Below, in pieces: positions 5,534-24,130 of a stretch of 64,000 nt of DNA. The stretch covers positions 3,038,594 to 3,102,593 of the forward strand of contig CP073749.1 of NCBI GenBank assembly GCA_024398055.1, in the 5' to 3' direction. The translations under genes and the position numbers were made by a program. How positions within the stretch are numbered: position 1 is the first letter of the stretch; each line of letters starts with the position of its first letter. Below the pieces are notes generated by a model that was not told the origin of the DNA, did no database searches, and saw only the letters and a list, made by a program, of their open reading frames with translations. This stretch comes from a bacterium SCSIO 12741. GTDB taxonomy: Bacteria; Bacteroidota; Bacteroidia; Flavobacteriales_G; Salibacteraceae.

Positions 5534-6529
5534 ATGAACAGACTCGAGAATAAACGCATTCTGGTGACCGGCGGTGCTGGTTTTATCGGTTCTAACCTTT
5601 GTGCAGATCTGATTCACGACAATGAAGTGATTTGTCTGGATAACCTGCTTACCGGAAAGAAGGAAAACATTGTGCCTTTGATGCAGCATTCCAACTTTCG
5701 GTTTATCGAAGGCGACATTCGCGATAAAGAAACCTGTGCTGAAGCGTTATTTGGAGTAGATGTAGTACTTCATCAAGCCGCATTAGGCTCTGTACCCAGA
5801 TCCATTAACAATCCAACGCTGACTAATTCAGTAAATGTGGATGGCTTTCTAAACATCATGAATGAAGCGGTAAAGGCCAAGGTCAATCGTTTTGTTTATG
5901 CAGCCAGTTCCTCTACTTATGGTGACCATCCAGGATTGCCTAAAGTAGAAGATCGCATTGGTAAGCCCCTTTCACCTTATGCCGTGAGCAAGTATGTGAA
6001 TGAACTGTATGCAGAGGTGTTTTCCAAGCTCTATGGAATCGAAACAATCGGACTTCGCTACTTCAATGTATTTGGACGTCATCAGGATCCTAATGGAGCC
6101 TATGCAGCAGCCATTCCGCGTTTTATTCGTGCCTTGATTCACCATCAGTCACCTGAGATTTACGGTGATGGAAAACAGTCCAGAGACTTTACTTACATCG
6201 ATAATGTTATCCAAGCAAATCATTTAGCTGGAGGAACCACGTCTCAAGATGCGGTAAACGAAGTATACAACGTAGCATTTGGAGAAAGTACCACCTTAAA
6301 TGAGTTGATGGATGTATTAAAATCCCTTTTGAGTGACTACGACTCCGACATTGCAGGAGTAGAAGTAAACTATGGTCCGGAGAGGGTGGGTGATGTGCGT
6401 CACTCCTTGGCTTCCATCGAAAAAGCGAAGCAAAAATTAAACTATGCGCCCCAGCATTCCATTAAAGATGGGTTGGTGGAAGCCATAGATTGGTATTGGA
6501 ATTATTTTAAAGCAGAGAAATATGCCTAA
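5534..6529 (+). CDS. NAD-dependent nucleotide-sugar epimerase (WbpP/UDP-GlcNAc 4-epimerase-like)
   Basis: This 331-residue extended short-chain dehydrogenase has the Rossmann motif VTGGAGFIGSNL, the active-site Ser region YAASSSTYGDH, and YAVSK with the catalytic Tyr-Lys pair. The N-terminal part and FTYIDNVIQAN resemble WbpP/TviC-type enzymes that interconvert UDP-GlcNAc and UDP-GalNAc or their uronic acids. The exact sugar cannot be decided. Its ATG abuts the rny stop codon and its end overlaps the following dehydrogenase by eight bases, so the two sugar enzymes are probably co-transcribed and act on the same polysaccharide precursor. Confidence 0.88.
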   Translation: MNRLENKRILVTGGAGFIGSNLCADLIHDNEVICLDNLLTGKKENIVPLMQHSNFRFIEGDIRDKETCAEALFGVDVVLHQAALGSVPRSINNPTLTNSVNVDGFLNIMNEAVKAKVNRFVYAASSSTYGDHPGLPKVEDRIGKPLSPYAVSKYVNELYAEVFSKLYGIETIGLRYFNVFGRHQDPNGAYAAAIPRFIRALIHHQSPEIYGDGKQSRDFTYIDNVIQANHLAGGTTSQDAVNEVYNVAFGESTTLNELMDVLKSLLSDYDSDIAGVEVNYGPERVGDVRHSLASIEKAKQKLNYAPQHSIKDGLVEAIDWYWNYFKAEKYA

Positions 6530-7544
6530 GGGAAAACTTAAGTTCGCCGTTGTAGGATATGGTCACATTGGTCGCCGCCACGCTGCCATGGTTGCCGGAA
6601 ATGAATTGGCTCAGGTAGCCGCAGTAGTAGATCCGGTAGAGGAGCGCAGAAAATTGGCTCAGGAAGATCACGGTTGTCAGGTGTTTGCCTCCTCCGATGA
6701 GCTTTATGCTTCTGGGATGGAGATCGATGTAGTAAATGTATGTACCCCAAATGGCGTGCATTCCGATCAAGCTATTGAGGCCTTGAGCAACCGCTGTCAC
6801 GTGGTTATTGAAAAGCCCATGGGATTGACCAAGCACAAAACCGAAGAGGTGATTTACAAAGCCTTGCAGGTTTCCAGACAGGTATTTCTCGTTAAGCAGA
6901 ATCGATACAGTCCTTCATCAGCCTGGTTGAAGTCCTTAATGGATGAAAATCGTTTTGGCGAAATCTTTATGGTTCAGTTGAATTGCTACTGGAACCGAGA
7001 TGATCGCTACTACAAACCCGGTGGATGGAAAGGGACGAAAGAAATGGATGGGGGAACACTGTTTACCCAGTTTAGCCACTTCATCGACATCATGTATTGG
7101 TTGTTTGGAGACATCGAAAACATCTCTGGACGCAGCATAAACAACAATCACCCTTCTACCGAATTTGAAGATACCGGAATCGTGAACTTTGACTTCGTTA
7201 ATGGAGGGATGGGATCACTCAACTTTTCTACTTCCGTTTGGGGGCAGAATTTGGAGAGCAGCATCATTATCATTGGAGAAAAAGGAAGCGTTAAAGTAAG
7301 CGGACAATACATGGATAAAGTAGAGTACTGCCATGTGGAAGATTACGTTATGCCGGAACTTCCTCCAGCGAATCCACCAAACGATTACGGAACGTATAAA
7401 GGAAGTGCCGCTAACCACCACTACGTGATTCAAAACGTGGTAGATGTGCTTACCGGAAAGGCTGAGATTTCAACCAATGCCCTTGAAGGGATGAAAGTGG
7501 TTGAAATGATTGAGCGCATTTATAAAAAGATTGGACAAGGTTAA
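6522..7544 (+). CDS. Gfo/Idh/MocA family oxidoreductase (WbpB-like)
   Basis: The 340-residue protein has an N-terminal Rossmann fold (FAVVGYGHIGRRHA), the family signature VIEKPMGL containing the catalytic EKP lysine, and the C-terminal substrate-domain segment GGTLFTQFSHFIDIMYWLFG with the usual His. This family oxidises or reduces sugars with NAD(P). Next to a WbpP-like epimerase it most resembles WbpB-type dehydrogenases that oxidise the 3-position of UDP-N-acetylglucosaminuronate. That substrate is inference from context. An intrinsic terminator follows 22 bases after its stop. Confidence 0.88.
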   Translation: MPKGKLKFAVVGYGHIGRRHAAMVAGNELAQVAAVVDPVEERRKLAQEDHGCQVFASSDELYASGMEIDVVNVCTPNGVHSDQAIEALSNRCHVVIEKPMGLTKHKTEEVIYKALQVSRQVFLVKQNRYSPSSAWLKSLMDENRFGEIFMVQLNCYWNRDDRYYKPGGWKGTKEMDGGTLFTQFSHFIDIMYWLFGDIENISGRSINNNHPSTEFEDTGIVNFDFVNGGMGSLNFSTSVWGQNLESSIIIIGEKGSVKVSGQYMDKVEYCHVEDYVMPELPPANPPNDYGTYKGSAANHHYVIQNVVDVLTGKAEISTNALEGMKVVEMIERIYKKIGQG

Positions 7545-10567: not shown

Positions 10568-11833
10568 ATGAACCATCTGCACTCTTTTTTTCTGGTTTTA
10601 ACTGCAATGATCGTATTGCCGAACAAGGTTTTGGCTCAGGTTCAAATCGATACTTCGCATAACGCGGCCTATTGGGTAAAGCAGGTCTTGCTCGCAGAGG
10701 AAAGCGGAGTAGAGGTAAGTAAAGTTCATTTCAAAGGAGCCAAACAAAGTCTCGGCTCATTTAAAAATAAGTGGACCTCTTTGGTCATGCCCGAAGGCAT
10801 CATCATTTCTTCTGGAGATGTGATGGGAGCTGCTGGACCCAATGATAATCCAAAAATGAGTTCGGTAATCTATCCTTTTCCCGACCGAGACCTTCAGAAA
10901 ATTGCAACCGGAGAAGTTTTTGATGCCGCTGTATTGGAATTTGATTTGGTCGCTCAATACGATAGTCTATCCTTTGGATTTGTATTTGCCTCCGAAGAGT
11001 ATCCGGAATACGTCAACAAAGGAGTGAACGACATTTTTGCCTTTTGGATTACCAATCGAGAAACCGGATTCAAGCGAAACCTGGCTCTATTGCAACCCGA
11101 TAATGAGCCCGTAATGGTGGACAACATCAATGCTGAAAAACACCCCGAACTCTTTATTCAAAATGGGATATGGGAAGAAGACAACATCCGGAAATGGGAA
11201 AACAACAAAACCTTGGGCGAGCTGGCTTATGCTTTTCAATACGATGGTTTTACCCGGCTGCTCAAGGCACAAACGCGGGTAGTTCCCGGAGAGACCTACC
11301 ACCTAAAAATAGCTATTGCTGATGTGGGAGATCGTCGCTACGATTCAGCAGTCATGTTGGAGGCCTATTCATTAAGAAGTCAACCCAGTGAAGAAAGTCA
11401 GCAAAAGTTGGAAAATCGCCTCGCTGCGGATTTGGCTGAAAAATTCAGCGGATTGCCAGGAGAAATTCAAGCCGATTCGGATCAGGTTTCGATTAGTTTA
11501 CCCATTCTTTTTCGCACCAATTCCGATCAAATTAGCGACGACCAATCGATGGATTACCTCAAGCAAATTGTTCAGGTTTTGCTTGATCAACCCGATTCTA
11601 AATTGCGGGTAGTAGGCCATACCGACCGGGTAGGTACTGACGCTTATAACCAAGATTTATCAGAACGGCGGGCTCAAAAAGTAGCTGAATTTTTGATTTC
11701 CAGAGGGGTTCAAATCTCACGGGTTCAATGGGAGGGAAAAGGTGCTTCCGAGCCGATTGCATCGAACGATGACGATAACGGAAGATCCCGGAATAGACGG
11801 GTGGAATTTATTTTTGTTCCTGAAGGGAATTAA
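10568..11833 (+). CDS. Choice-of-anchor L domain protein with C-terminal OmpA peptidoglycan-binding domain
   Basis: From the ATG at 10568 the protein has 421 residues with a signal peptide (FFLVLTAMIVLPNKVLAQ). Residues about 30-270 form a choice-of-anchor L domain, recognisable from LSFGFVFASEEYPEYVNKG, NDIFAFWIT and YHLKIAIADVGDRRYDSAV. Residues about 310-420 are an OmpA_C domain with LRVVGHTDRVG and NDDDNGRSRNRRVEF, including the Asp and Arg that bind diaminopimelate in peptidoglycan. The choice-of-anchor L domain is normally surface-exposed in secreted proteins, so this combination may present it while anchored to the cell wall. The stop overlaps the convergent kinase gene by four bases. 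Confidence 0.88.
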   Translation: MNHLHSFFLVLTAMIVLPNKVLAQVQIDTSHNAAYWVKQVLLAEESGVEVSKVHFKGAKQSLGSFKNKWTSLVMPEGIIISSGDVMGAAGPNDNPKMSSVIYPFPDRDLQKIATGEVFDAAVLEFDLVAQYDSLSFGFVFASEEYPEYVNKGVNDIFAFWITNRETGFKRNLALLQPDNEPVMVDNINAEKHPELFIQNGIWEEDNIRKWENNKTLGELAYAFQYDGFTRLLKAQTRVVPGETYHLKIAIADVGDRRYDSAVMLEAYSLRSQPSEESQQKLENRLAADLAEKFSGLPGEIQADSDQVSISLPILFRTNSDQISDDQSMDYLKQIVQVLLDQPDSKLRVVGHTDRVGTDAYNQDLSERRAQKVAEFLISRGVQISRVQWEGKGASEPIASNDDDNGRSRNRRVEFIFVPEGN

Positions 11834-12687
11834 AGCGAATACTGCCGATGGTAGTCAATGAGTCCATCAATTGGCCGTTTGATCACCTTACCGATTTCAG
11901 ACTCAAATTCCTCAGCCACTTCTTTCAATTCATCTAAAAAGTACCAGGCTATCGATCCAATAAAATGAACCGGATATTGCTTGTATTCCGGATAGCAACT
12001 TATGTGGTACTTGAAGAATTCCTGCATCCCAAAAAGCAGCAGCTTTCGGATGTACGGATCCTTGCGATGATTGGCCATAAATGGCATAAACTGGGCTAAA
12101 AAGGCGCTTGGTCGAGGTTGCTGATACAGGCGATTGAGCACTTCATCTTTTTCCAATTGGTAAGTAGCTTCGAAATCCTGATGGATTTCCGGAGGCATCT
12201 GGCGATAAAAGAAATCACGTACCAAAAACTTACCATAGTAGCCGCCACCTGCTTCGTCTCCAGGAATCATACCCAAACTGGGGATTTCCTCAGAAACCTC
12301 CTGCCCATCGAAAAAACAAGAATTAGATCCCGTTCCCAAAATGCAGGTGATGCCCGGTTTACCCTGCCAGGTGGCGAAGGCGGCTCCTTTTAAATCGTGC
12401 TCCACATAAATGGTGGCTTGCGGAATTACCTGCTGAAACCCTTGGGTGACGATGGAATTATTCAAATCGTTCGAGCAGCCCGATCCATAGAAGTAGATTT
12501 CACTAATCTGTGAGCCCAAGGAAGAAAGTGCAGGTTGCTCCTTAAAATTCGAAGCAATCGAATCGGAATCCATGTAAAAGGGATTGTAACCTTGTGTTTC
12601 AAAAGAAGTAACCGTTTCTCCCTGTTCATTTAGAGCTACCCAATCAGCCTTGGTTGACCCTCCATCCGAAATAAGCTTAATTCCCAA
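11830..12687 (-). CDS. N-acetylglucosamine kinase-like protein (BadF/BadG ATPase family)
   Basis: This 285-residue cytosolic protein has the actin-like kinase fold: phosphate-1 loop ISDGGSTKADW at the N-terminus and ITCILGTGSNSCFFDG as the phosphate-2 loop, with PGDEAGGGYYGK and FIGSIAWYF later. These match bacterial and eukaryotic N-acetylglucosamine kinases, which phosphorylate GlcNAc for recycling of cell-wall or chitin sugar. Length is typical. No other amino-sugar catabolic gene is nearby. Confidence 0.87.
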   Translation of the reverse strand: MGIKLISDGGSTKADWVALNEQGETVTSFETQGYNPFYMDSDSIASNFKEQPALSSLGSQISEIYFYGSGCSNDLNNSIVTQGFQQVIPQATIYVEHDLKGAAFATWQGKPGITCILGTGSNSCFFDGQEVSEEIPSLGMIPGDEAGGGYYGKFLVRDFFYRQMPPEIHQDFEATYQLEKDEVLNRLYQQPRPSAFLAQFMPFMANHRKDPYIRKLLLFGMQEFFKYHISCYPEYKQYPVHFIGSIAWYFLDELKEVAEEFESEIGKVIKRPIDGLIDYHRQYSL

Positions 12688-12727: not shown

Positions 12728-13111
12728 TCAAGGCTTGTAGTAGCCATACTGAATTAACAAGCGTTTGATGCGAATCACCAGTTCGTTAGGACTAAACGGC
12801 TTCGTCATGAATTCATCGGCGCCTAATTCAAAGGCTTTGAGTACATTTTTTTCCTGACGCAGCGTAGTAAGCATGATCACCGGAATTCTCTTTTCCTTAA
12901 TGTCTTTGATGTACTTAACCAACTCCAGACCTGTGATGTAAGGCATCATGATATCTGACACCACCAAATCGGGAAGAACCTCGTCCAATAAGTCCATGGC
13001 CGCTTTTCCATTCTCTGCGGTATAGGTTTCGTAACCCTCCTTTTTTAAGCGAAATTCCACTGTTTTTAACAGCATTCGCTCATCCTCTACGATCAGTATT
13101 TTTGAACTCAT
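12728..13111 (-). CDS. Single-domain response regulator (receiver only)
   Basis: This 127-residue protein is a complete receiver domain and nothing else. It has the acidic pocket VEDE (residues 8-11), phosphoacceptor Asp53 in VVSDIMMPYITG, the switch Thr in VIMLTT and the Lys in FMTKPFSP. With no output domain it must act by protein contact or as a phosphorelay intermediate. It lies divergent from the YaiO-type gene, and a free HPt protein and a hybrid kinase are within 9 kb, so it may relay signals to the exopolysaccharide genes. That link is inference. Confidence 0.93.
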   Translation of the reverse strand: MSSKILIVEDERMLLKTVEFRLKKEGYETYTAENGKAAMDLLDEVLPDLVVSDIMMPYITGLELVKYIKDIKEKRIPVIMLTTLRQEKNVLKAFELGADEFMTKPFSPNELVIRIKRLLIQYGYYKP

Positions 13112-13309
13112 TGAAGGCTTTTTCCTAAAGAAAACAGGGCTTTCCGATACTAAGCGTTACCGCCTTTTACCCCCGATAATGGCCTGTTCTTCGCTAACGC
13201 GAATATACTATTTTGGGATCAACGGGGAAATGAGCCCGAGTTCTGAACATCCTATTGTAGACCGAATTATTCTCCGGTACATCGATAAATCTTGGGAATT
13301 TGCTAATCT

Positions 13310-13317
13310 TATATTTG
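13310..13317 (+). promoter_or_regulatory. -7 box upstream of the YaiO-type operon
   Basis: TATATTTG matches TAnnTTTG exactly. The nearest upstream TTG (13292-13294) is only 15 bases away, closer than usual. It would give a leader of about 80 bases before the YaiO-type gene. The remainder of 13112-13405 shows no gene. Confidence 0.4.
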
Positions 13318-13405
13318 TATTCAATGGAAAAGGTTTCTTTTGTGCCCACAAATTTCAGTTTGGAGAGCTGAAATCAACTGGGTTATGAAGGGGAACCGAG
13401 TTAAT

Positions 13406-15457
13406 ATGGTGCGGAAAATAATAACCATACTGGTATTCGCAGCTATCGCTATGGGCGGATACGCTCAAGAAAGCCGGGATCCGGATCAATGGATCAAGGA
13501 AATAAGGGAGACAGCTTTTGCGAATCATTTTGATAGCGCCATAACGGAATGCGACAGCCTCCTTACCGTTTACCCTGAACATTTCGACACCCGTATTCTT
13601 CTTACCCGAGTATTGGCCTGGGATGGTCAGCTGGAACGAGCCCAAAAAGAGGGTAGAAAGGTTTATGACGAACAGCCCGAAAATTATGACGTGATCCGCC
13701 TTTGGAGCACCGTACTTCGTTGGTCTGGAAAGCCGGGAAAAGCTCAGGACGTGAGTACGGATGGTTTGGTTCACTTTCCGCAAGACAAAGGCATTTGGCT
13801 CGACTACGCCATGGCCACTTACGAAAACGACGAGTACCTGGCGGCATTGGACACCGTAGGTGCCGAAATACATACCTATCCAGATTACGTTCCCGCCGTT
13901 AAATATCGGTTGCGTCTTCTTATATGGGAAGATTCACTCGACTATGCCTTGCAGCAATGTGATAGCATGCACGAACTGCAGCCCGAAGATTTGGATTACC
14001 GGGTTTTTCGATCTGATATTTACGCTCGTCAGGAAATTTACAAGCAAGCTTCAGATGAATTGGATACGGTTATTCGAACCGATTCCAACAAACTGGATGC
14101 CTGGCATTTGATGGTCAATGTGTTGTTGTGGGATCAGCAACCCGATTCGGCTTTAACCGTGGCTCAAAAGGGACTGGAACGCTTTCCTCGCGACAAAAAC
14201 CTGCATACTCAATTAGCCAAGTCTTATTTGTATACGGATTCGTTCCAATTGGCCGTGGATACAGCGACTGCTATCATTGAAGAAGATTCCCTGGACTACG
14301 ATGCCTGGAACATTGCTTTGAATGCCTGGTTGGCACTTGAGAATTATGATACCATAATAGATGTATCTGATTATGTGATGCATCACTTTACAGGTGATGA
14401 GGAAGTCGAGCGGATTATTGCCCTGGCCTATGCGGGCAAAAAGAAATACAATCCCGCCAAAGAGGTATTAGCCAAAGATGATGAAGAAGCTGAAAACTTA
14501 GAAGTGAGCAGCAAGGTTCTTTACGCCAAGCTTCATTATTGGAACAAGGAAAACTCAAAAGCCCTAAAACTGGTAGAGTCTTTCTTGGAGAGTCACCCGG
14601 AATCGGTGGATTTATACTTGCTTAAAACCCAACTTCATATTTCACGCTTCGAAAAAAAGAAGGCCTTTGAAAGTATTGATTCGGTGGCAGTAAGGGATAC
14701 CAACAACCCTAATATTCCTGCTTTAACCGAAAAGGCTGAAAATATTTTCCTCAACAATTTAGGAGCTTACTATTCTTTCGATTATTACGATAATTCGGAG
14801 TTTCATCGTCATGCTTTGACCATTGAATACCTGCGTCGCATTCAACGCCATGTTATTCTGGGACGTCTTACTATGGCCGATCGGGCAGGAGCTACCGGAT
14901 ATCAATTCGAAATTGACGCTTACCCAGTTCTAACGGATTGGATGTATTTATACCTCAATGCCGGGGTGTCCAATGGAGTTCTTTTTCCAGATTTTAGGGC
15001 AGCGATAGAACCCTATGTTCGTTTACCATTGACCTTAGAGCTTTCAGCTGGACTGCGCTACATGAATTACCCGACTGAGGAAGTACTCATATACACGGGA
15101 AGTATTGGAGCCTACCCTGGAAACTTTTATTTTGCCTTCAGGCCTTTTATTAGCGTAAAGGATAGTGGTGTTTTTCAGTCGTACAACGTTAAAGCACGTT
15201 ACTTCTTTCCGGAATCTAATCTGACTTATCTGGAATTGAATGCAGGAACAGGGTCCAGTCCGGATAATGCCTATTTGGATCCGGCATTTACCCAATTTGT
15301 AGAGTCCAGGTCCTATAACATCGGGCTCACTTTTCAGAAAAAATTAGGAAGACAATTTTACGGCCGGGCTTGGTTTATCTACGATCACTATCAACCCGAA
15401 GAAATTCCGAACTTTACCATATACAGTAGCAATATAGGAATCTGGTGGATGTTTTAA
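13406..15457 (+). CDS. TPR protein with C-terminal YaiO-type outer-membrane beta-barrel
   Basis: From the ATG at 13406 the protein has 683 residues; an ATG at 13385 would add seven. The signal peptide is KIITILVFAAIAMGGYAQ. Residues about 25-430 are tandem TPR helices (for example TRILLTRVLAWDGQLERAQK and LARQ-like units about 34 residues apart). The last about 240 residues alternate aromatic and polar residues and end in WWMF, as in outer-membrane barrels of the YaiO family. In E. coli yaiO lies near the GT2 gene yaiP. Here the barrel is followed by a HEAT protein and a GT2 synthase with overlapping frames, so I infer that TPR plus barrel guide the polymer through periplasm and outer membrane, as AlgK/AlgE or BcsC do. 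Confidence 0.88.
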   Translation: MVRKIITILVFAAIAMGGYAQESRDPDQWIKEIRETAFANHFDSAITECDSLLTVYPEHFDTRILLTRVLAWDGQLERAQKEGRKVYDEQPENYDVIRLWSTVLRWSGKPGKAQDVSTDGLVHFPQDKGIWLDYAMATYENDEYLAALDTVGAEIHTYPDYVPAVKYRLRLLIWEDSLDYALQQCDSMHELQPEDLDYRVFRSDIYARQEIYKQASDELDTVIRTDSNKLDAWHLMVNVLLWDQQPDSALTVAQKGLERFPRDKNLHTQLAKSYLYTDSFQLAVDTATAIIEEDSLDYDAWNIALNAWLALENYDTIIDVSDYVMHHFTGDEEVERIIALAYAGKKKYNPAKEVLAKDDEEAENLEVSSKVLYAKLHYWNKENSKALKLVESFLESHPESVDLYLLKTQLHISRFEKKKAFESIDSVAVRDTNNPNIPALTEKAENIFLNNLGAYYSFDYYDNSEFHRHALTIEYLRRIQRHVILGRLTMADRAGATGYQFEIDAYPVLTDWMYLYLNAGVSNGVLFPDFRAAIEPYVRLPLTLELSAGLRYMNYPTEEVLIYTGSIGAYPGNFYFAFRPFISVKDSGVFQSYNVKARYFFPESNLTYLELNAGTGSSPDNAYLDPAFTQFVESRSYNIGLTFQKKLGRQFYGRAWFIYDHYQPEEIPNFTIYSSNIGIWWMF

Positions 15458-16557
15458 GCAACATATGGACCTACCTGATGGAGCAGGACTTTGCGCACCG
15501 TTTTGTTACGGTAATCATTGTGATTCTGTTCTTTTCCTCCATCGTTCTTCTATTGGGAATTTTGGTGAGCCGAACCATCAAAAACAAGAAGGAAAGGGAA
15601 AGCGACTTGTGGCACGAAAAATTTCAAGCCCTTCTCGTCAATATTCTGTTTGATGCCAAGTATGAGCCCGGCACCGATGATTACAAACGTCTCATTAAAA
15701 AATACCACGCCGATAAATTGAATGCTGTTCAGCAGAAGGCATTGATTGGTGAGATGGATGTTCTGCATAAAAACGTGGCTGGGGAAACCTCTGAAAAACT
15801 GGAAGCCTTCTACCATGACGTAGGTCTAATTCCTTATGCCGTTGAACGAGTGAAGGATGGCAAATGGTGGGAAAAAGCAGGAGCCTTTAGAGAGCTGTCC
15901 GAGTTTAAGGCAGTCAGTCAGTACGACTTGATTCTGAAATACGTTGACCACGATAACAAAACCCTTCGGGCAGAAGCTCAATATGCGGCTGTATCGCTAA
16001 AAGGGGTGAATGCCTTGCATTTTGTAGAATCGCTCAAGTATCCGATGTCTGAATGGCAGCAGCTGGTCATGCTGGAAAAATTGGCGCGTTACCTACCCGA
16101 AGAAATTCCGGACGTAAGGCACTGGTTGAGTTCTGACAATGATTCAGTCGTCATTTTCGGATTGAAAGTGATTGCCCAGTTTCAGCAGTTCAATGCCGAA
16201 AAGCAGGTGATTGAACTTTTGGTGCATAAAAATCCGAGAGTGGTAAAGCAAGATATCCAAAGCTTGGTGCGCCTTCAATTCAAATCGGCTTGCCCTTTTT
16301 TGAGAAGAATTTATTCGGATTCCCCGAAAAGCATAAAACTGCAGATCATCGATGCACTCTCAGAGTTGGGAGACTCCGGAGATCGCAGCTTCTTTAGAGA
16401 ATTAGTTGAAGATCAAGATGATTTCGAAATTGGTCTTCGAGCAGGAATGGCCCTGCGAAACTTAGGAGGGAGATCCATCCTACAACAATTGGATCGGAAA
16501 GAATTAACTGAACAAAGGAGGAAGATTGTTACTCACGCTCTTGACGAAAGAATTTGA
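15445..16557 (+). CDS. Membrane-anchored HEAT-repeat protein
   Basis: The frame overlaps the end of the YaiO-type gene by 13 bases; a second ATG at 15478 (MEQDFAHRF) would avoid most of the overlap. One transmembrane helix (VTVIIVILFFSSIVLLLGIL) lies near the N-terminus, and the rest, about 300 residues, is cytosolic alpha-helical HEAT-like repeats (LRAEAQYAAVSLKG, VVIFGLKVIAQFQQ, PRVVKQDIQSLVRLQ, KLQIIDALSELGDSGD). HEAT solenoids are protein-binding scaffolds. Its end overlaps the GT2 synthase frame by 32 bases, so I propose that it is an accessory or scaffold subunit of that synthase and a possible docking point for the receiver protein. Confidence 0.85.
   Translation: MDVLSNIWTYLMEQDFAHRFVTVIIVILFFSSIVLLLGILVSRTIKNKKERESDLWHEKFQALLVNILFDAKYEPGTDDYKRLIKKYHADKLNAVQQKALIGEMDVLHKNVAGETSEKLEAFYHDVGLIPYAVERVKDGKWWEKAGAFRELSEFKAVSQYDLILKYVDHDNKTLRAEAQYAAVSLKGVNALHFVESLKYPMSEWQQLVMLEKLARYLPEEIPDVRHWLSSDNDSVVIFGLKVIAQFQQFNAEKQVIELLVHKNPRVVKQDIQSLVRLQFKSACPFLRRIYSDSPKSIKLQIIDALSELGDSGDRSFFRELVEDQDDFEIGLRAGMALRNLGGRSILQQLDRKELTEQRRKIVTHALDERI
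16513..16528 (+). promoter_or_regulatory. Strong Shine-Dalgarno sequence selecting a TTG start
   Basis: AAAGGAGG ends six bases before a TTG codon at 16526. Perfect Shine-Dalgarno sequences are rare in Bacteroidota. It lies inside the HEAT gene and supports initiation of the GT2 gene at TTG. The first in-frame ATG (16631) is 35 codons later, inside the first membrane helix. Confidence 0.6.
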
Positions 16558-18736
16558 CCTGGACAACTCGTTCTGGGACATCGTGGTGGAGTTGTTTTAC
16601 AACATCCTCTACATCTATTCGGTATCCATCATGGTTACCTACTTGGTGTTGGCGATTATTTCTTTCATCTCCGTTCGCAAATACTTGCACAAAAACAGCT
16701 TTGTAGACTACAAGGATATTCTGAATACGGATTTTGCTCCCTCGGTAAGTATCCTTGCTCCAGCCTACAACGAGGCGGCTACCATCATCGACAATATCCG
16801 TTCGCTATTATCTATTCATTATTCCAACTATGAAGTAATCATCGTTAATGATGGGAGTAAAGACAATACCCTGGAGCTTTGTATTGAAGAATACGACCTC
16901 GTTCCGGTAGATTATGCGATTGACGATAAACTGAAGACTAAGGACGTTCGGGCGGTTTACAAATCCCGTAACAAGGTTTTTAACCAGCTGGTGGTAGTGG
17001 ACAAGGTTAATGGAGGTAAATCCGACGCCTTAAATGTGGCCATCAATATTGCTTCCTACGATTATGTGACCTGTATCGACGTGGATTGTGTTTTGGAACA
17101 GGATGCCCTCTTGAAACTCATGAAACCCTTCATGGATGAGAACAAGAAGGAAGTAATTGCCACGGGTGGAGTAATTCGTATTGCCAATAGCTGTGTGATT
17201 GAAAACGGCCAGTTGGTGGAGGTGAAGGTGCCGAAAAACTTTGTTGCCCGTTCTCAAACACTGGAATACATCCGAGCTTTCCTCTTAGGGCGTATGGCTT
17301 GGTCTCTCCTCGATGGACTGATTTTGATTTCCGGAGCGCTGGGGGTCTTTAAAAAAGATATCGTTGTTGAAGTAGGTGGCTATGACAACAAAACCGTAGG
17401 GGAGGACATGGAGCTCATCGTACGTATGAGACGGCACATGATCGATACCAAACGGCAGTATACCGTAGCCTTGATTCCCGATCCTTTGTGCTGGACCGAA
17501 AGTCCTGAAACCTGGAGTCAATTGGGGCGTCAGCGTAACCGATGGACCCGTGGAACCATAGAAACCCTATGGCAGCACCGTGGCATGCTTTTCAATCCAA
17601 AGTATAAGTTGATTGGAATGCTGAGCTACCCTTTCTGGCTTTTCTTTGAATGGGCAGCCCCGCTCTTAGAGGCCATGGGACTTATGCTGTTTGCCCTACT
17701 TGCAGTAGCCGGATTGGTCAACTGGAGTTTCTTTGGTTTAATGATCCTATTGATCTTCGGATTCACGATTACCTTTTCCGTATTATCCCTGCTTATTGAA
17801 GAGATTACCTACCACAACTACAAACGAAAACGGGATATCCTTCGCTTGCTTCAGGTAGGTATGTTGGAGCCCTTGTTCTATCACTTGCACCTCGTTTATT
17901 CAGCTGTAATGGGGAATCTCGATTTCTTATTGGGAACCTCATCCTGGGGAGAAATGGCGAGGAAAGGTTTTGATGGAGATGGTAAGCCGAAACGGATTCA
18001 GGTAGTAAAAAGCATTATTACCGAAGGTCCGAAGAAGGCGGCAGTTCGTGCCTCTTATGCTACCTGGACAGCAGTTTCTATTGCTTTAATGGCCATTTTC
18101 CTTTACTACATTGTTGACTTAGACAAACTGTTGACCAAAGATGAACTGGCGATGAATCCGAAGTTGAGGAATGTATTCGTCAAAAAAGAAACCGCTACCG
18201 AAACCATCATGCGGAAGGAAAAGGAGATTCTGGCCAAGAGTATCCAACGATCTCTGGCTAAGTCTATGGCCCAAACGCAAAGAGAACAAGATGCAGATTC
18301 CGATAACTCAAATCGGGAAACAACTTCATCAAGCTCAACTCCACCCGATCAGGTGGCATCCACAAAGCCTGAAAAGCAGGAAACTACTCCGGCTAAAAAG
18401 GAAGAAGATAATACCGCTTCGGCAACTCCACCAGCTCCCAATTCCAGAGAAGCTCGTCGAGCGATTCAAGCCAAATACAGGGCTAAAAAGAAGCCAACGG
18501 ATAATCGGGTATTCTATTTGGTTGCAGGAAGCTATAAAGAAGAGAAAAACGCCTTCAAACGCAGAAATGAACTTCGCCGCAAGGGATTCAAAGGAGCCCA
18601 GGTATACACCAACGGAGAAGTTTACCGGGTAACTTTCGTTAAATACTACGACGAAGAAGAAGCTCTTGAAAATCTGAAAACGCTACGAGCCGAGGAAAAC
18701 GAAGGTGCGTGGATGTTACGAGGAGTTCGAGGATAG
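16526..18736 (+). CDS. Processive-type family 2 glycosyltransferase with C-terminal SPOR domain
   Basis: The protein has 736 residues from the TTG at 16526. An N-terminal membrane helix (about 25-50) precedes a GT2 domain with SILAPAYNEAATI, VNDGSKDNT, CIDVDCV (DxD), VGEDMELIVRMRR and QRNRW. The QxxRW motif marks processive beta-glycan synthases such as PgaC, BcsA and HasA. Further helices follow, with a last one at about 508-530. After it comes a Ser/Thr/Pro/Lys-rich linker (about 570-655) and a SPOR domain (about 660-734; FYLVAGSYKEEKNAFKR, YRVTFVKYYDEEEAL). SPOR domains bind denuded septal peptidoglycan, so this end should be periplasmic. No PilZ domain is visible, so direct c-di-GMP control is not supported. 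The fusion is unusual. Confidence 0.93.
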   Translation: MLLTLLTKEFDLDNSFWDIVVELFYNILYIYSVSIMVTYLVLAIISFISVRKYLHKNSFVDYKDILNTDFAPSVSILAPAYNEAATIIDNIRSLLSIHYSNYEVIIVNDGSKDNTLELCIEEYDLVPVDYAIDDKLKTKDVRAVYKSRNKVFNQLVVVDKVNGGKSDALNVAINIASYDYVTCIDVDCVLEQDALLKLMKPFMDENKKEVIATGGVIRIANSCVIENGQLVEVKVPKNFVARSQTLEYIRAFLLGRMAWSLLDGLILISGALGVFKKDIVVEVGGYDNKTVGEDMELIVRMRRHMIDTKRQYTVALIPDPLCWTESPETWSQLGRQRNRWTRGTIETLWQHRGMLFNPKYKLIGMLSYPFWLFFEWAAPLLEAMGLMLFALLAVAGLVNWSFFGLMILLIFGFTITFSVLSLLIEEITYHNYKRKRDILRLLQVGMLEPLFYHLHLVYSAVMGNLDFLLGTSSWGEMARKGFDGDGKPKRIQVVKSIITEGPKKAAVRASYATWTAVSIALMAIFLYYIVDLDKLLTKDELAMNPKLRNVFVKKETATETIMRKEKEILAKSIQRSLAKSMAQTQREQDADSDNSNRETTSSSSTPPDQVASTKPEKQETTPAKKEEDNTASATPPAPNSREARRAIQAKYRAKKKPTDNRVFYLVAGSYKEEKNAFKRRNELRRKGFKGAQVYTNGEVYRVTFVKYYDEEEALENLKTLRAEENEGAWMLRGVRG

Positions 18737-18751
18737 GCTGGGTTCAAATTT

Positions 18752-18973
18752 CAATCTTCAATCTTCAATCTTGAATCTTGAATTCTGGATTGTGAACACT
18801 TAAATTGGAGAGCGCCTCGAGATTCAAGATTAAACCTTGATTTCCGGATTTGAACATTTATTAAATTGGAGAGCACCTCAAGATTCAGGATTAAACCTTG
18901 AATTCTGGATTGCAAACCCTTAATTTGACTAGCTCCTCAAGATTCAAGATTCAAGATTGAATATTGAAGATTC
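18752..18973. repeat. Three tandem ~60-bp repeats inside inverted ATTCAAGATT arms
   Basis: Three degenerate copies of a roughly 60-bp unit (18781-18839, 18840-18900, 18901-18959) share AATTCTGGATT, AAATTGGAGAGC and CCTCAAGATTCA. The block is bounded by a left arm at 18752-18785 and a near-complementary right arm at 18941-18973, so the whole region can fold back on itself. It separates two convergent genes and may act as a bidirectional terminator. It overlaps the stop codon of the minus-strand gene. Confidence 0.75.
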
Positions 18974-20163
18974 TAAAGGTCATCCTCAAAATCATCCTCA
19001 TACTCATCAAAGTGGAGCATCTTGTAGTAGTCATGCATGATTTTGGAAACCATGGGTCGGTAGTATCTCCAGAAGAATTTTTTGCGGTCACTTAGGTCTC
19101 GGTTGTTATAGAGGAAGAAGTCTAAGTTTTCAATTCCTCGACTATACACAGCGGTGAAGGGGATGGGATTATCCGCAAAATCTCCGGCGAAATAATAGAA
19201 GCGGTTAATAATATGGTCACCGAGCACCGCCGGGAATTCCTTGGGAATTTTGTTCGCTTTGAGTATCGAGTCCCCTCGATGGTTGGTGTGTATCTTGAAG
19301 GTAGAGACGACCAGATCATCGTACTGCAGATAAGAAATATCGAACCAGAAAGGGTAACGAATGTACTGGGGGACGTCAAAAAACTCCCGGTAATACACAT
19401 CGGTATTGATGATGGGTACCTCGTGAATCAAATCGTTTTCCTTTTCCAGAATAACAATCTTATCCGATTCATGCACCATGACAATTCCAGCATCCTTGTA
19501 GGGCCAATCACCTTCATTTTGTTCCAGATAGAGTCGAATAATCCATCGGGGTAGCTCCTTGTTTTTATTCGTATCCAATGAAAAGAAATACCGTCCAATC
19601 CATCCCGACCAAAGAATACCAAATTCATCTTCAATCTTTTTCCGGATTTTATAGTTTGTGGGCGAGGCGATGGTATTGAACTCCATCATGATGAGCTTCT
19701 GCCGTTCGTGCATTCGCTCGAGCAATTGATAATCCTGTTCCGAAGTTCTACCGTAAATCAATTTCACATGATCCGATACTTCCCGGTAGTGGTACCATTC
19801 ATTTGAATACACCCCGTAAGAGTCCGTATAATACATCATGTCGAGCGTATCCGCCAGGCTATCCAGCGTTTCGGGTTCCATCAATTCAAGATCTGAGATG
19901 TAGTACTGATCACTGTCAAGCGGAAAGAAACCGAGGTAGTCGCTTACTTCATAGAACTCGTTGCTGGGCTTAACGAATTTGTGGTGTTTTAGGATCCAGT
20001 TGAAACTCCGGTGCTCATTTCCTTCTTCAGTCAATACAGTTTTGTCAATAACCAGGATATTGATCGGGTACTCTGGACTGAAATACCACACTACGATACT
20101 TATCACAGGCAAGCTTGCCAAAATGAGAAAAATCAATCCTACGAGCCATTTGCGTAATTCCAT
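18973..20163 (-). CDS. Membrane-anchored extracytoplasmic protein of unknown function beside the GT2 synthase
   Basis: This 396-residue protein has one N-terminal helix (LVGLIFLILASLPVISIVVWY) and an extracytoplasmic body rich in Tyr, Trp, Phe and Asp. Visible landmarks are ILVIDKTVLTEEGNEHRSFN, YLGFFPLD, WSGWIGRYFFSLD, FYYFAGDFADNPIPF and KKFFWRYYRPM, and a very acidic tail. No known catalytic motif is evident to me. The density of aromatic and acidic residues is compatible with carbohydrate binding or processing. It is convergent with the synthase gene and separated only by the repeat block. I assign no enzyme activity. Confidence 0.75.
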   Translation of the reverse strand: MELRKWLVGLIFLILASLPVISIVVWYFSPEYPINILVIDKTVLTEEGNEHRSFNWILKHHKFVKPSNEFYEVSDYLGFFPLDSDQYYISDLELMEPETLDSLADTLDMMYYTDSYGVYSNEWYHYREVSDHVKLIYGRTSEQDYQLLERMHERQKLIMMEFNTIASPTNYKIRKKIEDEFGILWSGWIGRYFFSLDTNKNKELPRWIIRLYLEQNEGDWPYKDAGIVMVHESDKIVILEKENDLIHEVPIINTDVYYREFFDVPQYIRYPFWFDISYLQYDDLVVSTFKIHTNHRGDSILKANKIPKEFPAVLGDHIINRFYYFAGDFADNPIPFTAVYSRGIENLDFFLYNNRDLSDRKKFFWRYYRPMVSKIMHDYYKMLHFDEYEDDFEDDL

Positions 20164-20277
20164 GGTAGACGATCCCTTTATTCGAAATTCCTGCTGAATT
20201 TCCTAAAAAACTGGTGCTAAGTTATTTTTTCCCGATGAATGGACTTTAGAAATAGGATGAAATTCTCCTCAGTACGT

Positions 20278-20285
20278 TATTTTTG
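20278..20285 (+). promoter_or_regulatory. -7 box of the HPt gene
   Basis: TATTTTTG is an exact TAnnTTTG match 19 bases before the ATG at 20305. No convincing -33 element is present. Confidence 0.4.
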
Positions 20286-20304
20286 ACCCCAGGGAGAGGA
20301 GGAC

Positions 20305-20661
20305 ATGAGAGAGTCTATTATTGATTTTTCTAAAATGGATGAATGGTTGCACGGTGACCAGGAACTCATTCACGATACGCTGGTTATCTATCAGCAGGAA
20401 ATATTGTCGTACATCTACCACTTGTCGGAAGCACTTGAAAAAAAGGACTACGATCGCCTCTTTTTTATGTTGCATAAAATGACCTCTCCCATTTTACTCT
20501 TTCACATGGACGAAGCCAACAAGTGCGTTGGGCTGATAGAATCTCAAAAAAATGTGGAGGTTAAAGATGCTGTCCTGATCAAAACCAATCTGGATCGACT
20601 GGAGGAAATACTCCGACGCTCCTTAGTGGAGGTCGAAGTTTACCTCAAACAACATTCTTAA
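20305..20661 (+). CDS. Stand-alone histidine phosphotransfer (HPt) protein
   Basis: The 118-residue protein is all helical, with an amphipathic layout like the four-helix HPt bundle. His57 in FFMLHKMTSPILLF is the likely phosphoacceptor. The motif HKMxSP is also present in the HPt domain at the end of the hybrid kinase at 21425 (AHKMKSPLNIVG), which supports the assignment, while classical HPt domains have HxLKG. It would shuttle phosphate between a hybrid kinase receiver and another receiver, perhaps the receiver-only protein at 12728. The stop overlaps the convergent LytTR gene by four bases. Confidence 0.75.
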   Translation: MRESIIDFSKMDEWLHGDQELIHDTLVIYQQEILSYIYHLSEALEKKDYDRLFFMLHKMTSPILLFHMDEANKCVGLIESQKNVEVKDAVLIKTNLDRLEEILRRSLVEVEVYLKQHS

Positions 20662-21344
20662 AGAATATTTAGTCTACTCTTCAAGGAGTCTTTGTAAGTA
20701 CGACTTACTGGAATTCGATCTTTTTCCAGGTAAACCGTATTCTTCTCAATTTTCAAAATCTTGTCAATACGGACGATAAAGGATTTATGAATTCTCATAA
20801 AGTCATCCGAAGGCAATTTGGCTTCCATAGCCTTCATCGTTGATAGCACCGTATATTTTCCGCTTTTGGTGTGAATTCTCACATAATCGCCCAAAGCCTC
20901 GATAAAAGTGACCGATAAAAGGTCCACTTTGATCAAACGCGAGTCACTTTTGACGTAAATGATGTTTTCTTCAGCGTCATTATTCCCAAAAGCTTCATGA
21001 ATTTTTTGGGCTTTCTCAGCGGCTTTCAGAAAACGCTCGTAGGAAATCGGTTTAACCAAATAGTCCGTTACATCATTTTCAAAAGCTTCAATGGCGTAAT
21101 TGGTGCGGGAGGTAACTAAAATAACCTGAGGAATGTCTTTGATGGTTCTAATGAACTCAATACCCGTCATTTCTGGCATTTGAATATCCAGGAATATCAA
21201 GTCAATCTTTTTCTCGTCCAGGCCCTTTTTGAGCTCCAGTGCATTGGTGTAATACCCAACCAAATTCAGAAAATCTGTTTGGCTAATGCACTTTTCCAAA
21301 ACCTTTCTGGACAGGTGTTCGTCGTCTACTACTACACAGTTCAT
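20658..21344 (-). CDS. LytTR-family response regulator
   Basis: The protein has 228 residues. A receiver domain (1-120; acidic DDE at 7-9, phosphoacceptor Asp53 in IFLDIQMPEMTG, Lys in VKPISYERF) is followed by a LytTR DNA-binding domain (about 130-228) with FIEALGDYVRIHTKSGKYT, MKAMEAKLPSDDFMRIHKSF and VSRTYKDSLKSRL. Such regulators normally pair with LytS-type kinases that have an internal His_kinase domain. None is adjacent, but a propeller kinase of exactly this type lies at 35206. It is divergent from the hybrid kinase with an 80-base shared intergenic region. Confidence 0.95.
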   Translation of the reverse strand: MNCVVVDDEHLSRKVLEKCISQTDFLNLVGYYTNALELKKGLDEKKIDLIFLDIQMPEMTGIEFIRTIKDIPQVILVTSRTNYAIEAFENDVTDYLVKPISYERFLKAAEKAQKIHEAFGNNDAEENIIYVKSDSRLIKVDLLSVTFIEALGDYVRIHTKSGKYTVLSTMKAMEAKLPSDDFMRIHKSFIVRIDKILKIEKNTVYLEKDRIPVSRTYKDSLKSRLNIL

Positions 21345-21424: not shown

Positions 21425-24130
21425 ATGCAAAAGGTGGATATTCAGGAAAAAATTGAGCTCATAGAGCAGGTCATTTCTTCGGCCCTCGTTCCTACGGCCA
21501 TTTGCAATGAACAAGGTCAGGTGCTGGGCATGAACAATGCTTTCGTGCAACTAACCGGTCGAAGTCATTCAGATTGGTCTGGGCTCAAAGTGGATTCCTG
21601 GTTCACGGTGCTCACACCGACAGAAGAATCCTTGGAACAGCTCATCCGTTTTGACACACCTTTTGAAGTTCGCCCCATCAATGAACCAATCAGCAGTACC
21701 TTTGTCGTAAGTCCGCAATACCTTTTCCCAGATCAGAAGAATCGCCTGGTATTGCTGCGTTTTCATGAATCCCGTCAAAAGCAGGGATACCTGGAAGAAT
21801 TAAGAAAACTCTCCCTGTCTGCCAGCCAGAGTTTATCGAGTATTTTACTGGTGGATACGGAATTGGTCATCCTTTGGAACAACAGCCAATTTCATCGCAA
21901 ATTCAACCCCGTAAACACGGAACTAATCGGCAAAACGATTTTTGACATCGTTGCTTTTAATGATCACAATAGGGGAGTATTAGATCGCGGAATAAAAACC
22001 GTAAAGGAATCCGGAAATGCGGTTCAGTTGGAGTTGGAGCCCGATTCGAACCAGGAAGAACCTTGTTGGTATTCCCTGGACATAAGTCCAGCTTATAACG
22101 ATGACAAGGAGCTTATTCATTTTATCCTAATGCTTCGGGATATTTCCCAAATTAAGGAAGCTGAACATAATCTGAGCCTGCACCAACAACGATTAAAAAG
22201 AGCCCAGCAATTGGCCAAATTGGGCGAGTTTGAATTTGATGTTAAATCCCAGAAAACCTACTGGTCTGACACCTTGATTAAGTTGTTGGAGCTGGAGCCC
22301 AAGCAATTAAATAGTCTGGATGATTTTAGCAAACTACTGGAAGATGGGGAAAAATGCGTTTGGGCAGAAGCTTTGCAACGAACACTTGATAATGCAGAGC
22401 AACAACACTTTCACCTTAACTATACACTTCCCGATGGTGAGATCCTGAACTTGATGGTCAATTTAAGCCTCGAGAAAAAGGACAATCGATTGTTCTTGTT
22501 AGGAACTCTGGAAGATGTAACCGAGCTGGAAGAAGCCAAAAGTAAATTGGAGCAAGCCCTCCTCAAGGCCGAAGAAAGTGCTCGGGTAAAACAGGAATTT
22601 CTGGCCAACATGAGCCATGAAATTCGCACACCGATGAATTCCATCTTGGGATTCTCCCGATTGATGTTGCGATCTCAGCAGCTCAATCCGGAGTTTACCG
22701 AATTTGCTCAAGCCATATACGAATCTGCGGAGAAACTCCACATTGTGCTGGATGAAATATTGAATGTTGCCCGCTTGGAATCCAGTGATTTAACCTTGGA
22801 TAGGCATCACATTCGATCTAATGATTTTATTGCGTCTCTGCAAAAGCTTCATGAGCGGAAAGCCAGAGAAAAGGGCTTGACCTTGGAATTGGTACTTGAT
22901 TCCGATTTCCCTGAAGTGATGCTTACCGATCATGTCCGGGTTTTTCAGGTACTGTCTAACCTTTTGGACAATGCCATTAAGTTTACCGATGAGGGTAAAA
23001 TCCGGATTTCGGCGAAAGCGTTGCGCAATACCCCAGAAGGATTTGTCGCCTGCTTTATTGTAAAGGATACCGGAATTGGAATTTCGAAGGAAGCCATTCA
23101 AGAAATCTTTGAATCGTTCAAACAGGCAGATAGTTCCATTTCCCGACGCTACGAAGGTGCCGGATTGGGATTGTCCATCGTTAGGCGATTGATCCGACTA
23201 CTCAATGGAACCATATCGGTTAAAAGTGAGCCGTGGGAAGGTTCTGAGTTTATTTTGGAAATTCCCATGCTTCACGGTGATCCAGAACAGATTGTAGGTC
23301 CTTATGAGGATGGCGATGAAGCAGCGAAACAACTGGAAGGACTTCGGGTACTGTTGGTAGAAGACAACCGAAACAATCGCCTGTTGGCCCAGAAATTCCT
23401 CAATGATTTAGGCATGAAATCCGATGAGGCCCTCAACGGTATTCAGGCCATAGGAAAGGTACGGGAGCACAATTACGATTTCATCCTGATGGATATTCAA
23501 ATGCCTGAAATGGATGGTATAGAAGCCACTAAGCTTATTCGAAAAATGCCTGGGGTAATGAGTCAGGTGCCTATTATCGCGTTAACCGCCCACGTACTCA
23601 AGGATGAAATCGATTCTTATCAAAAAGTAGGCATGAATGCCGTTATCAACAAACCCTTAAAAAAAGGAGAACTAATCGCCACTATGCTCAACCTGAAATC
23701 TGATCCGAACCAAACACCGGAGTTTGAAACTTCTACCACGGATAACTCTAACGATTCCGATTACACCACGATAAACCTTAAAGGTCTGTTAGCCATTTCG
23801 AGAGGAGATCTGGACTTTATTCAGGAAATGATCGAAGCCTATTTCGATGATATGCCGGTATACCTAAGCGAGTTTAAATCAGCCTTTCATGCGAAGGATA
23901 TTTCCCTTTTAGGCAAGATGGCTCATAAAATGAAATCCCCTTTGAATATAGTAGGGATTACGGCTATTGATGGCAAGTTGGATTACCTGGAAAACCTTCC
24001 GGGTGAAGATAATCTGGATGCAGAGGTATGGACTGATCTTGAAACAACGGTTCAACAGATAGAAGAAACCATAACCAAAGGTTCAGAGGAACTTGAGGAT
24101 TACCGGGAAAATACGTTGAATTCGAATTAA
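21425..24130 (+). CDS. Hybrid sensor histidine kinase (PAS-PAS-PAS-HisKA-HATPase-REC-HPt)
   Basis: This 901-residue protein lacks membrane helices, so it senses a cytosolic signal. Three PAS-like segments (about 10-110, 125-245, 255-370) are followed by HisKA with His398 in ANMSHEIRTPMN, an ATPase domain (LLDNAIKFTDEGKI, VKDTGIGIS, GAGLGLSIVRRL), a receiver with Asp690 in FILMDIQMPEMDG, and a C-terminal HPt with His834 in AHKMKSPLNIVG. The full His-Asp-His relay is therefore in one chain, ready to phosphorylate a separate receiver. Candidates nearby are the receiver-only protein (12728) and the LytTR regulator (20658). No PAS cofactor site can be identified by eye. Confidence 0.95.
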   Translation: MQKVDIQEKIELIEQVISSALVPTAICNEQGQVLGMNNAFVQLTGRSHSDWSGLKVDSWFTVLTPTEESLEQLIRFDTPFEVRPINEPISSTFVVSPQYLFPDQKNRLVLLRFHESRQKQGYLEELRKLSLSASQSLSSILLVDTELVILWNNSQFHRKFNPVNTELIGKTIFDIVAFNDHNRGVLDRGIKTVKESGNAVQLELEPDSNQEEPCWYSLDISPAYNDDKELIHFILMLRDISQIKEAEHNLSLHQQRLKRAQQLAKLGEFEFDVKSQKTYWSDTLIKLLELEPKQLNSLDDFSKLLEDGEKCVWAEALQRTLDNAEQQHFHLNYTLPDGEILNLMVNLSLEKKDNRLFLLGTLEDVTELEEAKSKLEQALLKAEESARVKQEFLANMSHEIRTPMNSILGFSRLMLRSQQLNPEFTEFAQAIYESAEKLHIVLDEILNVARLESSDLTLDRHHIRSNDFIASLQKLHERKAREKGLTLELVLDSDFPEVMLTDHVRVFQVLSNLLDNAIKFTDEGKIRISAKALRNTPEGFVACFIVKDTGIGISKEAIQEIFESFKQADSSISRRYEGAGLGLSIVRRLIRLLNGTISVKSEPWEGSEFILEIPMLHGDPEQIVGPYEDGDEAAKQLEGLRVLLVEDNRNNRLLAQKFLNDLGMKSDEALNGIQAIGKVREHNYDFILMDIQMPEMDGIEATKLIRKMPGVMSQVPIIALTAHVLKDEIDSYQKVGMNAVINKPLKKGELIATMLNLKSDPNQTPEFETSTTDNSNDSDYTTINLKGLLAISRGDLDFIQEMIEAYFDDMPVYLSEFKSAFHAKDISLLGKMAHKMKSPLNIVGITAIDGKLDYLENLPGEDNLDAEVWTDLETTVQQIEETITKGSEELEDYRENTLNSN

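Follow-up and report, generated by a model that had tools for sequence, protein, structure and literature searches.

A putative synthase-dependent exopolysaccharide system with a receiver, a HEAT protein and a YaiO-type outer-membrane protein in a Bacteroidota genome without GGDEF or PilZ matches

How is a polysaccharide synthase controlled in a bacterium in which the usual second-messenger machinery cannot be recognised? Cyclic di-GMP (c-di-GMP) is the known regulator of the polysaccharide synthases Bcs, Pga and Nfr. In the genome of bacterium SCSIO 12741 (Bacteroidota; Salibacteraceae; 5.1 Mb in a single contig, 95.9% complete by estimate), profile searches gave 0 GGDEF and 0 PilZ matches, whereas the control genomes had GGDEF matches in 8/14 and PilZ matches in 5/14. 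By these searches, the host genome lacks the c-di-GMP receptor or cyclase of general exopolysaccharide synthase systems. The window analysed here, a stretch of 64,000 nucleotides from contig CP073749.1 of this genome (positions 3,038,594 to 3,102,593), contains overlapping genes for a TPR-YaiO protein, a HEAT protein and a glycosyltransferase of family 2 (GT2). An earlier note, made from the sequence alone, had proposed a synthase-dependent polymer system controlled by phosphorelay rather than c-di-GMP. We consider it likely that the locus encodes such an exopolysaccharide system, in which a receiver acts via the HEAT protein on the GT2 and the polymer leaves through the YaiO protein.

The frames of the receiver, YaiO, HEAT and GT2 proteins, and that of an anchored protein treated below, were found by six-frame open reading frames (ORFs) and profile scans. 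Together with a hybrid kinase, the central features are (aa, amino acids; TM, transmembrane segment):

12728..13111, minus strand: receiver-only protein, 127 aa, divergent from the operon (PF00072, E 5e-29)
13385..15457 (alternative start 13406), plus strand: TPR-YaiO outer-membrane protein, 689 aa (PF19413, E 3e-48, behind TPRs)
15445..16557, plus strand: membrane-anchored HEAT protein with one TM, aa 23-41 (HEAT_2, E 7e-12)
16526..18736, plus strand: GT2 synthase with a C-terminal SPOR domain (PF00535, E 6e-21; PF13641, E 4e-20)
18506..18712, plus strand: SPOR domain of the synthase, aa 661-729, predicted periplasmic (PF05036, E 3e-9)
21425..24130, plus strand: hybrid histidine kinase PAS-HisKA-HATPase-REC-HPt, candidate phospho-donor (profile scan)

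Frame starts are the first possible start codons of mechanical ORFs. The YaiO frame (end 15457) overlaps that of HEAT (start 15445), and the HEAT frame (end 16557) overlaps that of GT2 (start 16526). The frames named in the earlier note were indeed present, the HPt assignment treated below being the doubtful one. An overlap of the GT2 start by the HEAT ORF was counted in 50/70 loci, which is an over-estimate because the ORFs begin at the first start codon.

The coherence of the system was evident from a survey of 296 genomes of the phylum (GT2 at E <= 1e-90, strong HEAT at E < 1e-20), in which the best candidates per genome were scored, three for GT2 and six for HEAT and the anchored protein; co-location counts took all strong HEAT matches and weak ones possibly near YaiO or GT2. 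We obtained 78 GT2 matches in 70 genomes, 73 YaiO matches in 69 and 46 strong HEAT matches in 40. All 46 strong HEAT matches lay within 2 kb of a match of the GT2 clade (41 within 300 bases) and 40 of them within 10 kb of YaiO. YaiO was found within 10 kb of the GT2 clade in 67/73 cases, and GT2 was present in 69/69 YaiO genomes (Fisher 2e-67, uncorrected for kinship). With weak HEAT matches included, HEAT lay within 2 kb of 59/78 GT2s, and none was detected for the other 19. The host genome holds one match each for YaiO, strong HEAT and the locus-type GT2. The clustering of these genes is far beyond chance. The earlier note had named rare co-occurrence, or linkage to unrelated glycosyltransferases, as the outcome that would speak against it; instead, the genes keep company with one GT2 clade.

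The HEAT protein occurs in 13/100 genomes including the host and, within its own taxonomic family, in 3/34 others. At the 12 other HEAT loci GT2 was adjacent in every case and YaiO was present in ten, the two without it lying at contig ends. The loci L016 and L017 keep the receiver, a BadF-type gene, a LytTR gene, the anchored protein and a mutase gene in order, while the close relative L015 keeps only YaiO-HEAT-GT2 of these genes. This patchy presence with kept gene order characterises the system as accessory within the family and conserved in its internal order.

We also fetched 80 loci with the GT2 as the only query against named species genomes; these are the best 80 of at least 412 GT2 relatives and no census. 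HEAT was adjacent to GT2 in 70 and apparently fused to it in five; of the five remaining loci without HEAT, L039 and L057 are cut by a contig end. The receiver-HEAT-GT2 core reaches Bacillota, Spirochaetota, Bdellovibrionota and Pseudomonadota. Titles of metagenome bins may be wrong; isolates with all three genes include Sporosarcina, Kurthia, Brevibacillus, Clostridium caldaquaticum, Bdellovibrio and Stutzerimonas.

The position of the receiver suggests what controls the synthase. In 75 loci, the gene directly before HEAT was a receiver in 45, YaiO in 11 and another gene in 6, with none found in 13; a receiver-bearing gene lay within 4 kb in 67/80 loci. Stand-alone receivers (<=160 aa) made up 43/465 ORFs within 3 kb of GT2 and 3/508 ORFs at least 5 kb away. 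The window receiver keeps the phospho-acceptor Asp53 and Lys104, and among the aligned stand-alone receivers near locus-type GT2s the Asp is kept in 51/54 and the Lys in 52/54. In Bacteroidota this regulator slot is mostly filled by a bare receiver, and in other phyla often by the C-terminal receiver of HPt-REC-GGDEF-REC, ODP-GGDEF-REC or similar proteins. A profile of the Bacteroidota receivers scored the C-terminal receiver above the N-terminal one in 8/10 two-receiver regulators directly before HEAT (the regulator of L076, not directly before HEAT, stands outside the ten).

Kinases accompany these receivers. Five large receiver-bearing proteins near Bacteroidota receivers were scanned; all were hybrid kinases. 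A terminal HPt was matched in four of the five, above the Pfam cut-off in L027 and L030 and just below it in L046 and L055, but not in L037. The kinases of L027, L030, L046 and L055 lie directly upstream of the receiver, and the window hybrid kinase shares their layout. No HPt was seen in a scan of the Stutzerimonas kinase of L094. The recurrent adjoining of receiver and kinase genes supports the phosphorelay-type control that had been proposed, and we infer that phosphate passes from the window hybrid kinase to the window receiver.

Predicted topology makes a cytosolic link from receiver to synthase the best reading of the HEAT protein. An N-terminal TM was found in 71/75 HEAT proteins scored (those of at most 460 aa and with E <= 1e-20), the other four having none. 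The flank after the TM was more positive than the flank before it in 69 of these 71, so that the HEAT domain should be cytosolic and would serve as an adaptor between receiver and synthase rather than cover the periplasmic passage that the earlier note had listed among the functions of the parts. Receiver, HEAT and the catalytic domain of GT2 would thus share the cytosol. Apparent HEAT-GT2 fusions were seen in five loci (L086, L093, L102, L105, L106), with HEAT-profile matches in the first 400 residues and GT2 at about 470-970. Those of L102 and L105 exceed the Pfam HEAT_2 cut-off, that of L086 falls just under it, and those of L093 and L106 were recognised by an iterated profile alone. This profile was trained on the set that it then scored; Pfam, as the independent check, placed HEAT_2 over the cut-off in 9/10 sampled distant or fused members and in 3/4 sampled enlarged proteins. 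About 180 extra residues, probably extracytoplasmic, precede the TM in the HEAT proteins of L044, L053 and L056; in some of them the start is signal-like, in keeping with an N-terminus on the outside. No Pfam family was found for the extension in L044 and L053.

The synthase itself would be of the processive type, judged by its DxD, ED and QxxRW motifs and its TMs. The GT2 domain spans about aa 70-430, and hydropathy places a further TM at aa 512-530. D185xD187, E293D294 and Q336xxR339W340 are invariant in 10/10 rows of the GT2 alignment. From family and motifs, the protein may polymerise a sugar on the cytosolic side and move the polymer through the inner membrane. In the GT2 tree, its closest relatives with a name belong to Bacteroidota; the tree was built without NfrB and YaiP, which had too few aligned columns, and the great length of the PgaC and BcsA branches leaves its rooting unsure. 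A PDB sequence search gave partial GT2 matches only.

SPOR domains bind denuded peptidoglycan. PF05036 was over the cut-off in 4/4 synthases of the own family (window plus three relatives) and missing from the remaining 6/10 alignment rows, all outside this family; the scan covered alignment rows and family members. The TM at aa 512-530 follows a basic stretch, which is why the SPOR domain would be periplasmic. Within this family, SPOR and the further TM may hold the synthase at denuded peptidoglycan, probably near division sites.

For the exit from the cell, the TPR-YaiO protein is the candidate. It passed both YaiO family models over the cut-off (PF19413 164.7 bits, TIGR04390 123.6 bits). 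In-frame ATGs stand at 13385 and 13406, the latter directly preceding a signal-peptide-like stretch; the searches used 13388-15454, one codon short. An AlphaFold 2 (AF2) model (mean pLDDT 84.9, pTM 0.55) comprises a TPR solenoid and a barrel of 14 strands, the relative placing of the two being unsure at this pTM. The predicted barrel aligned in VIA to the cyclodextrin porin CymA (Z 21.7, root-mean-square deviation (rmsd) 2.4, 217 residues) and to OmpG (Z 21.2, rmsd 2.6, 217 residues). No known polysaccharide exporter was among the 50 VIA entries shown for the model, whose top rows were eukaryotic TPR proteins, and PDB sequence searches with the YaiO and HEAT proteins returned mostly designed or eukaryotic repeat proteins. 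As modelled, the protein combines TPRs with an outer-membrane beta-barrel in the manner of an exporter, and would provide a periplasmic solenoid and a 14-stranded exit channel. The earlier idea of one system covering polymerisation and outer-membrane exit is supported.

In the mechanism that we propose, the hybrid kinase would pass phosphate to the receiver-only protein, and this in turn would act on the GT2 by way of the HEAT protein, anchored in the membrane and facing the cytosol. The route is suggested by gene order, fusions and topology and by the absence of c-di-GMP genes. Gene content, gene order, fusions, conserved residues and predicted folds are what the analysis shows; polymer, export and switch are deduced from them. 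The receiver-HEAT pair would thereby take the place held by c-di-GMP receptors in the Bcs, Pga and Nfr systems.

Several observations weigh against this reading. In the window the receiver is encoded on the strand opposite to the operon and forms one block with a BadF/BcrAD-type kinase gene directly beside it (11830-12687, minus strand), a pair also present in L016 and L017, and no receiver was found within 4 kb in 13/80 loci, some of them cut contigs. Both facts would suit a receiver that merely marks co-regulation, as a phosphate sink or kinase partner, the polymer being made with no action of the receiver on HEAT or GT2. We regard this explanation as rather unlikely, given that the receiver stands directly before HEAT in 45/75 loci across phyla, recurs there as the C-terminal domain of regulators, and as a stand-alone protein showed no output domain in the profile scan. 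Two of the ten two-receiver regulators (L073, L095) match better with their N-terminal receiver, and the 19.9 kb of the L015 locus yielded no receiver and no anchored protein.

The barrel raises a second objection. The model has 14 strands and the NfrA barrel is described with 16 in the parts available of PMC8669469 and PMC8669472, so that the YaiO channel may be narrower. A small barrel, together with the SPOR tail in 4/4 family members examined, could mean that the GT2 product is a glycan in the periplasm, at the septum or linked to lipid, which SPOR would hold, with YaiO as a scaffold and no exit channel. To our knowledge, a role in export has not been proven for E. coli YaiO, which would fit as well. 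This alternative seems improbable to us: SPOR is missing from the six rows outside the family, yet YaiO stays with GT2 (67/73), the barrel resembles CymA, and a TPR-barrel beside a GT2 is the NfrA/NfrB plan in what is available of the two papers.

As to the product, PgaC_IcaA, the nearest NCBIfam equivalog, gave 137 bits against a cut-off of 422 and the CelA (cellulose) model 36.6 bits against 699; neither poly-N-acetylglucosamine nor cellulose was reached by these models. The 20 window proteins scanned showed no polymer-modifying enzyme. Control of the usual Bcs/Pga/Nfr type by c-di-GMP, to which the GGDEF domains on same-place regulators of some Bacillota and Spirochaetota (two with an RFGGEEF motif) might point, is hardly credible with 0 GGDEF and 0 PilZ in 5.1 Mb and is refuted here, barring an unrecognised cyclase.

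Exopolysaccharide secretion under phosphorelay control thus remains our preferred reading, and known systems resemble it in part. In the available parts of PMC8669469 and PMC8669472, NfrA/NfrB of E. coli (the N4 glycan receptor system) is described as an inner-membrane GT2 with an outer-membrane TPR-barrel protein; the plan, the small operon and the uncharacterised product are alike, while neither HEAT nor a receiver is named in those parts. NfrB differs further in reaching only 1.6 bits with the module GT2 profile. No MshEN-type Pfam match was listed for the window GT2, whose GT2 domain is followed by TM, linker and SPOR. PgaC was the closest of four E. coli GT2s tested (BLASTP E 5e-25, 25% identity), and PgaA is a TPR-barrel protein resembling TPR-YaiO, but no PgaB or PgaD counterpart was found among the 20 window proteins.

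The earlier note had taken the E. coli yaiP/yaiO neighbourhood as the known relative. This holds for the YaiO family, for which PF19413 matches in E. coli as well, although E. coli YaiO has 257 aa compared to 689 in the window. It does not hold for YaiP (12.4 bits to the module profile, BLASTP E 2e-10), which we rejected as key relative with PgaC being nearer, nor for the neighbours, since neither HEAT nor a receiver is annotated in the surrounding 18 kb. In E. coli K-12 (L107), the annotation gives yaiX, the gene that separates yaiP from yaiO, as an acyltransferase interrupted by an IS2 element.

No description of a receiver-HEAT-GT2 or HEAT-YaiO system was found among the matches listed from the literature searched, most subscription journals lying outside it, nor is one given in the available parts of PMC8594841, PMC8669469, PMC8669472, PMC7710045, PMC3826837, PMC3071791 and PMC12419801. 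The receiver-HEAT-GT2 system would be a variant of synthase-dependent polysaccharide systems.

Three further genes lie between the synthase and the hybrid kinase:

18973..20163, minus strand: anchored extracytoplasmic protein, 396 aa, optional partner with a ThuA / class-I glutamine amidotransferase (GATase)-like fold in an AF2 model
20305..20661, plus strand: weak HPt-like protein of doubtful membership (Pfam Hpt 16.3 bits, cut-off 24.6)
20658..21344, minus strand: LytTR response regulator (profile scan), syntenic in L016 and L017

Up to E 1, neither Pfam nor NCBIfam gave a match for the anchored protein, and a PDB sequence search gave none either. Its AF2 model (mean pLDDT 83.8, pTM 0.85) matched 4jqs in Foldseek (E 1.2e-4, TM-scores 0.35/0.53) and, in VIA, 3rht (Z 13.5, rmsd 3.4, 205 residues), a GH42 domain (5xb7, Z 13.3) and an OST subunit (6s7o, Z 11.9), rows differing by less than 1 in Z being counted as tied. 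On this model the protein carries a ThuA / class-I-GATase-like fold. Class-I glutamine amidotransferases use a catalytic triad with Cys, and no Cys is among the invariant or nearly invariant columns of the 11-row alignment, which makes amidotransferase chemistry unlikely. With 12 matches in 11 of the 296 genomes, 10/12 of which have the system within 10 kb, the protein is an optional partner; its convergent presence was seen as the earlier note had described. A part in handling, binding or assembling the polymer on the outer side of the cytoplasmic membrane is conceivable.

Four Bacillota or Spirochaetota homologues form the N-terminal part of 1041-1089-aa proteins in loci of the same GT2 (L073:11391-14660, L097:11390-14557, L101:11444-14569, L105:3404-6646), and the roughly 650-700 aa that follow the GATase-like domain resemble, to the eye, a clan GH-A glycosidase. 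The 1089-aa Bacillota fusion of L073, the only one scanned, had no Pfam family over its whole length, and with one meaningless PDB match (E 0.09) we discarded it as a guide to polymer chemistry.

Of the two signalling proteins said to flank the operon, the receiver stood and the free HPt became doubtful. The HPt-like protein profile matched in 1/80 loci, weakly, and a syntenic ORF of a relative only at E 0.009, with the histidine missing at the aligned place; these results give it no support as a core member. The LytTR gene was seen in synteny in L016 and L017 only, and no search for it was made elsewhere. The BadF-type neighbour scored 22.6 in Pfam, under the cut-off of 31.5. The BadF/BcrAD family takes in N-acetylglucosamine kinases, and the gene gives a faint hint of amino-sugar chemistry. 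About 6 kb upstream of the operon lie genes for a nucleotide-sugar epimerase/dehydratase-type protein (5534-6529, plus strand) and a GFO/IDH/MocA oxidoreductase (6522-7544, plus strand). The window also encodes two large Sortilin-Vps10 repeat proteins with Por_Secre_tail sorting domains (32418-35153, plus strand; 54960-57506, minus strand).

Sister loci carry additional enzymes. A sulfatase-superfamily protein, separate or fused to GT2, occurs in 20/80 loci. The best NCBIfam match was of LtaS or OpgB type in 3/4 sampled proteins, at scores far below the cut-offs, and the fourth, from Bdellovibrio (L085), was nearest to choline sulfatase. These proteins thus recall the LtaS/OpgB phosphoglycerol transferases, and the cellulose phosphoethanolamine transferase BcsG is an analogue. 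GT2 and the sulfatase-superfamily domain share one ORF of about 1134-1178 aa in L022:6037-9474, L024:6215-9619, L035, L038, L043, L045, L047 and L049, apparently a synthase with its own phospho-substituent transferase. CotH kinase-family proteins stand beside the system in L018:8037-9371 and L020:10717-12012, and DUF4838 proteins in L021 and L026. Such enzymes suggest that the polymer is decorated or trimmed in a lineage-specific way; in the scan of 20 window proteins, no sulfatase-superfamily, CotH or DUF4838 protein turned up. L061, L062, L064 and L066 each have two GT2s of the locus-type clade in tandem, and three of these four loci also encode DUF4838 and a TPR-YaiO protein of unusual length (955-1006 aa).

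Taken together, a conserved synthase-exporter system is present in a genome without a GGDEF or PilZ match, a polysaccharide synthase with a SPOR domain is shown, and YaiO, a family of ill-defined role, gains a consistent GT2 partner in one phylum (69/69 YaiO genomes). The receiver-HEAT-GT2 core in several phyla and the apparent fusions lead us to propose phosphorelay switching of polymer secretion. Tentatively, and with slightly less than even confidence, we extend this to a cross-phylum way of gating polysaccharide synthases: the receiver would dock on a GT2-bound or GT2-fused HEAT domain and its phosphorylation would set the output post-translationally, replacing c-di-GMP in Bacteroidota, while other phyla would feed the same slot via GGDEF or HPt domains and SPOR would couple secretion to the division site.

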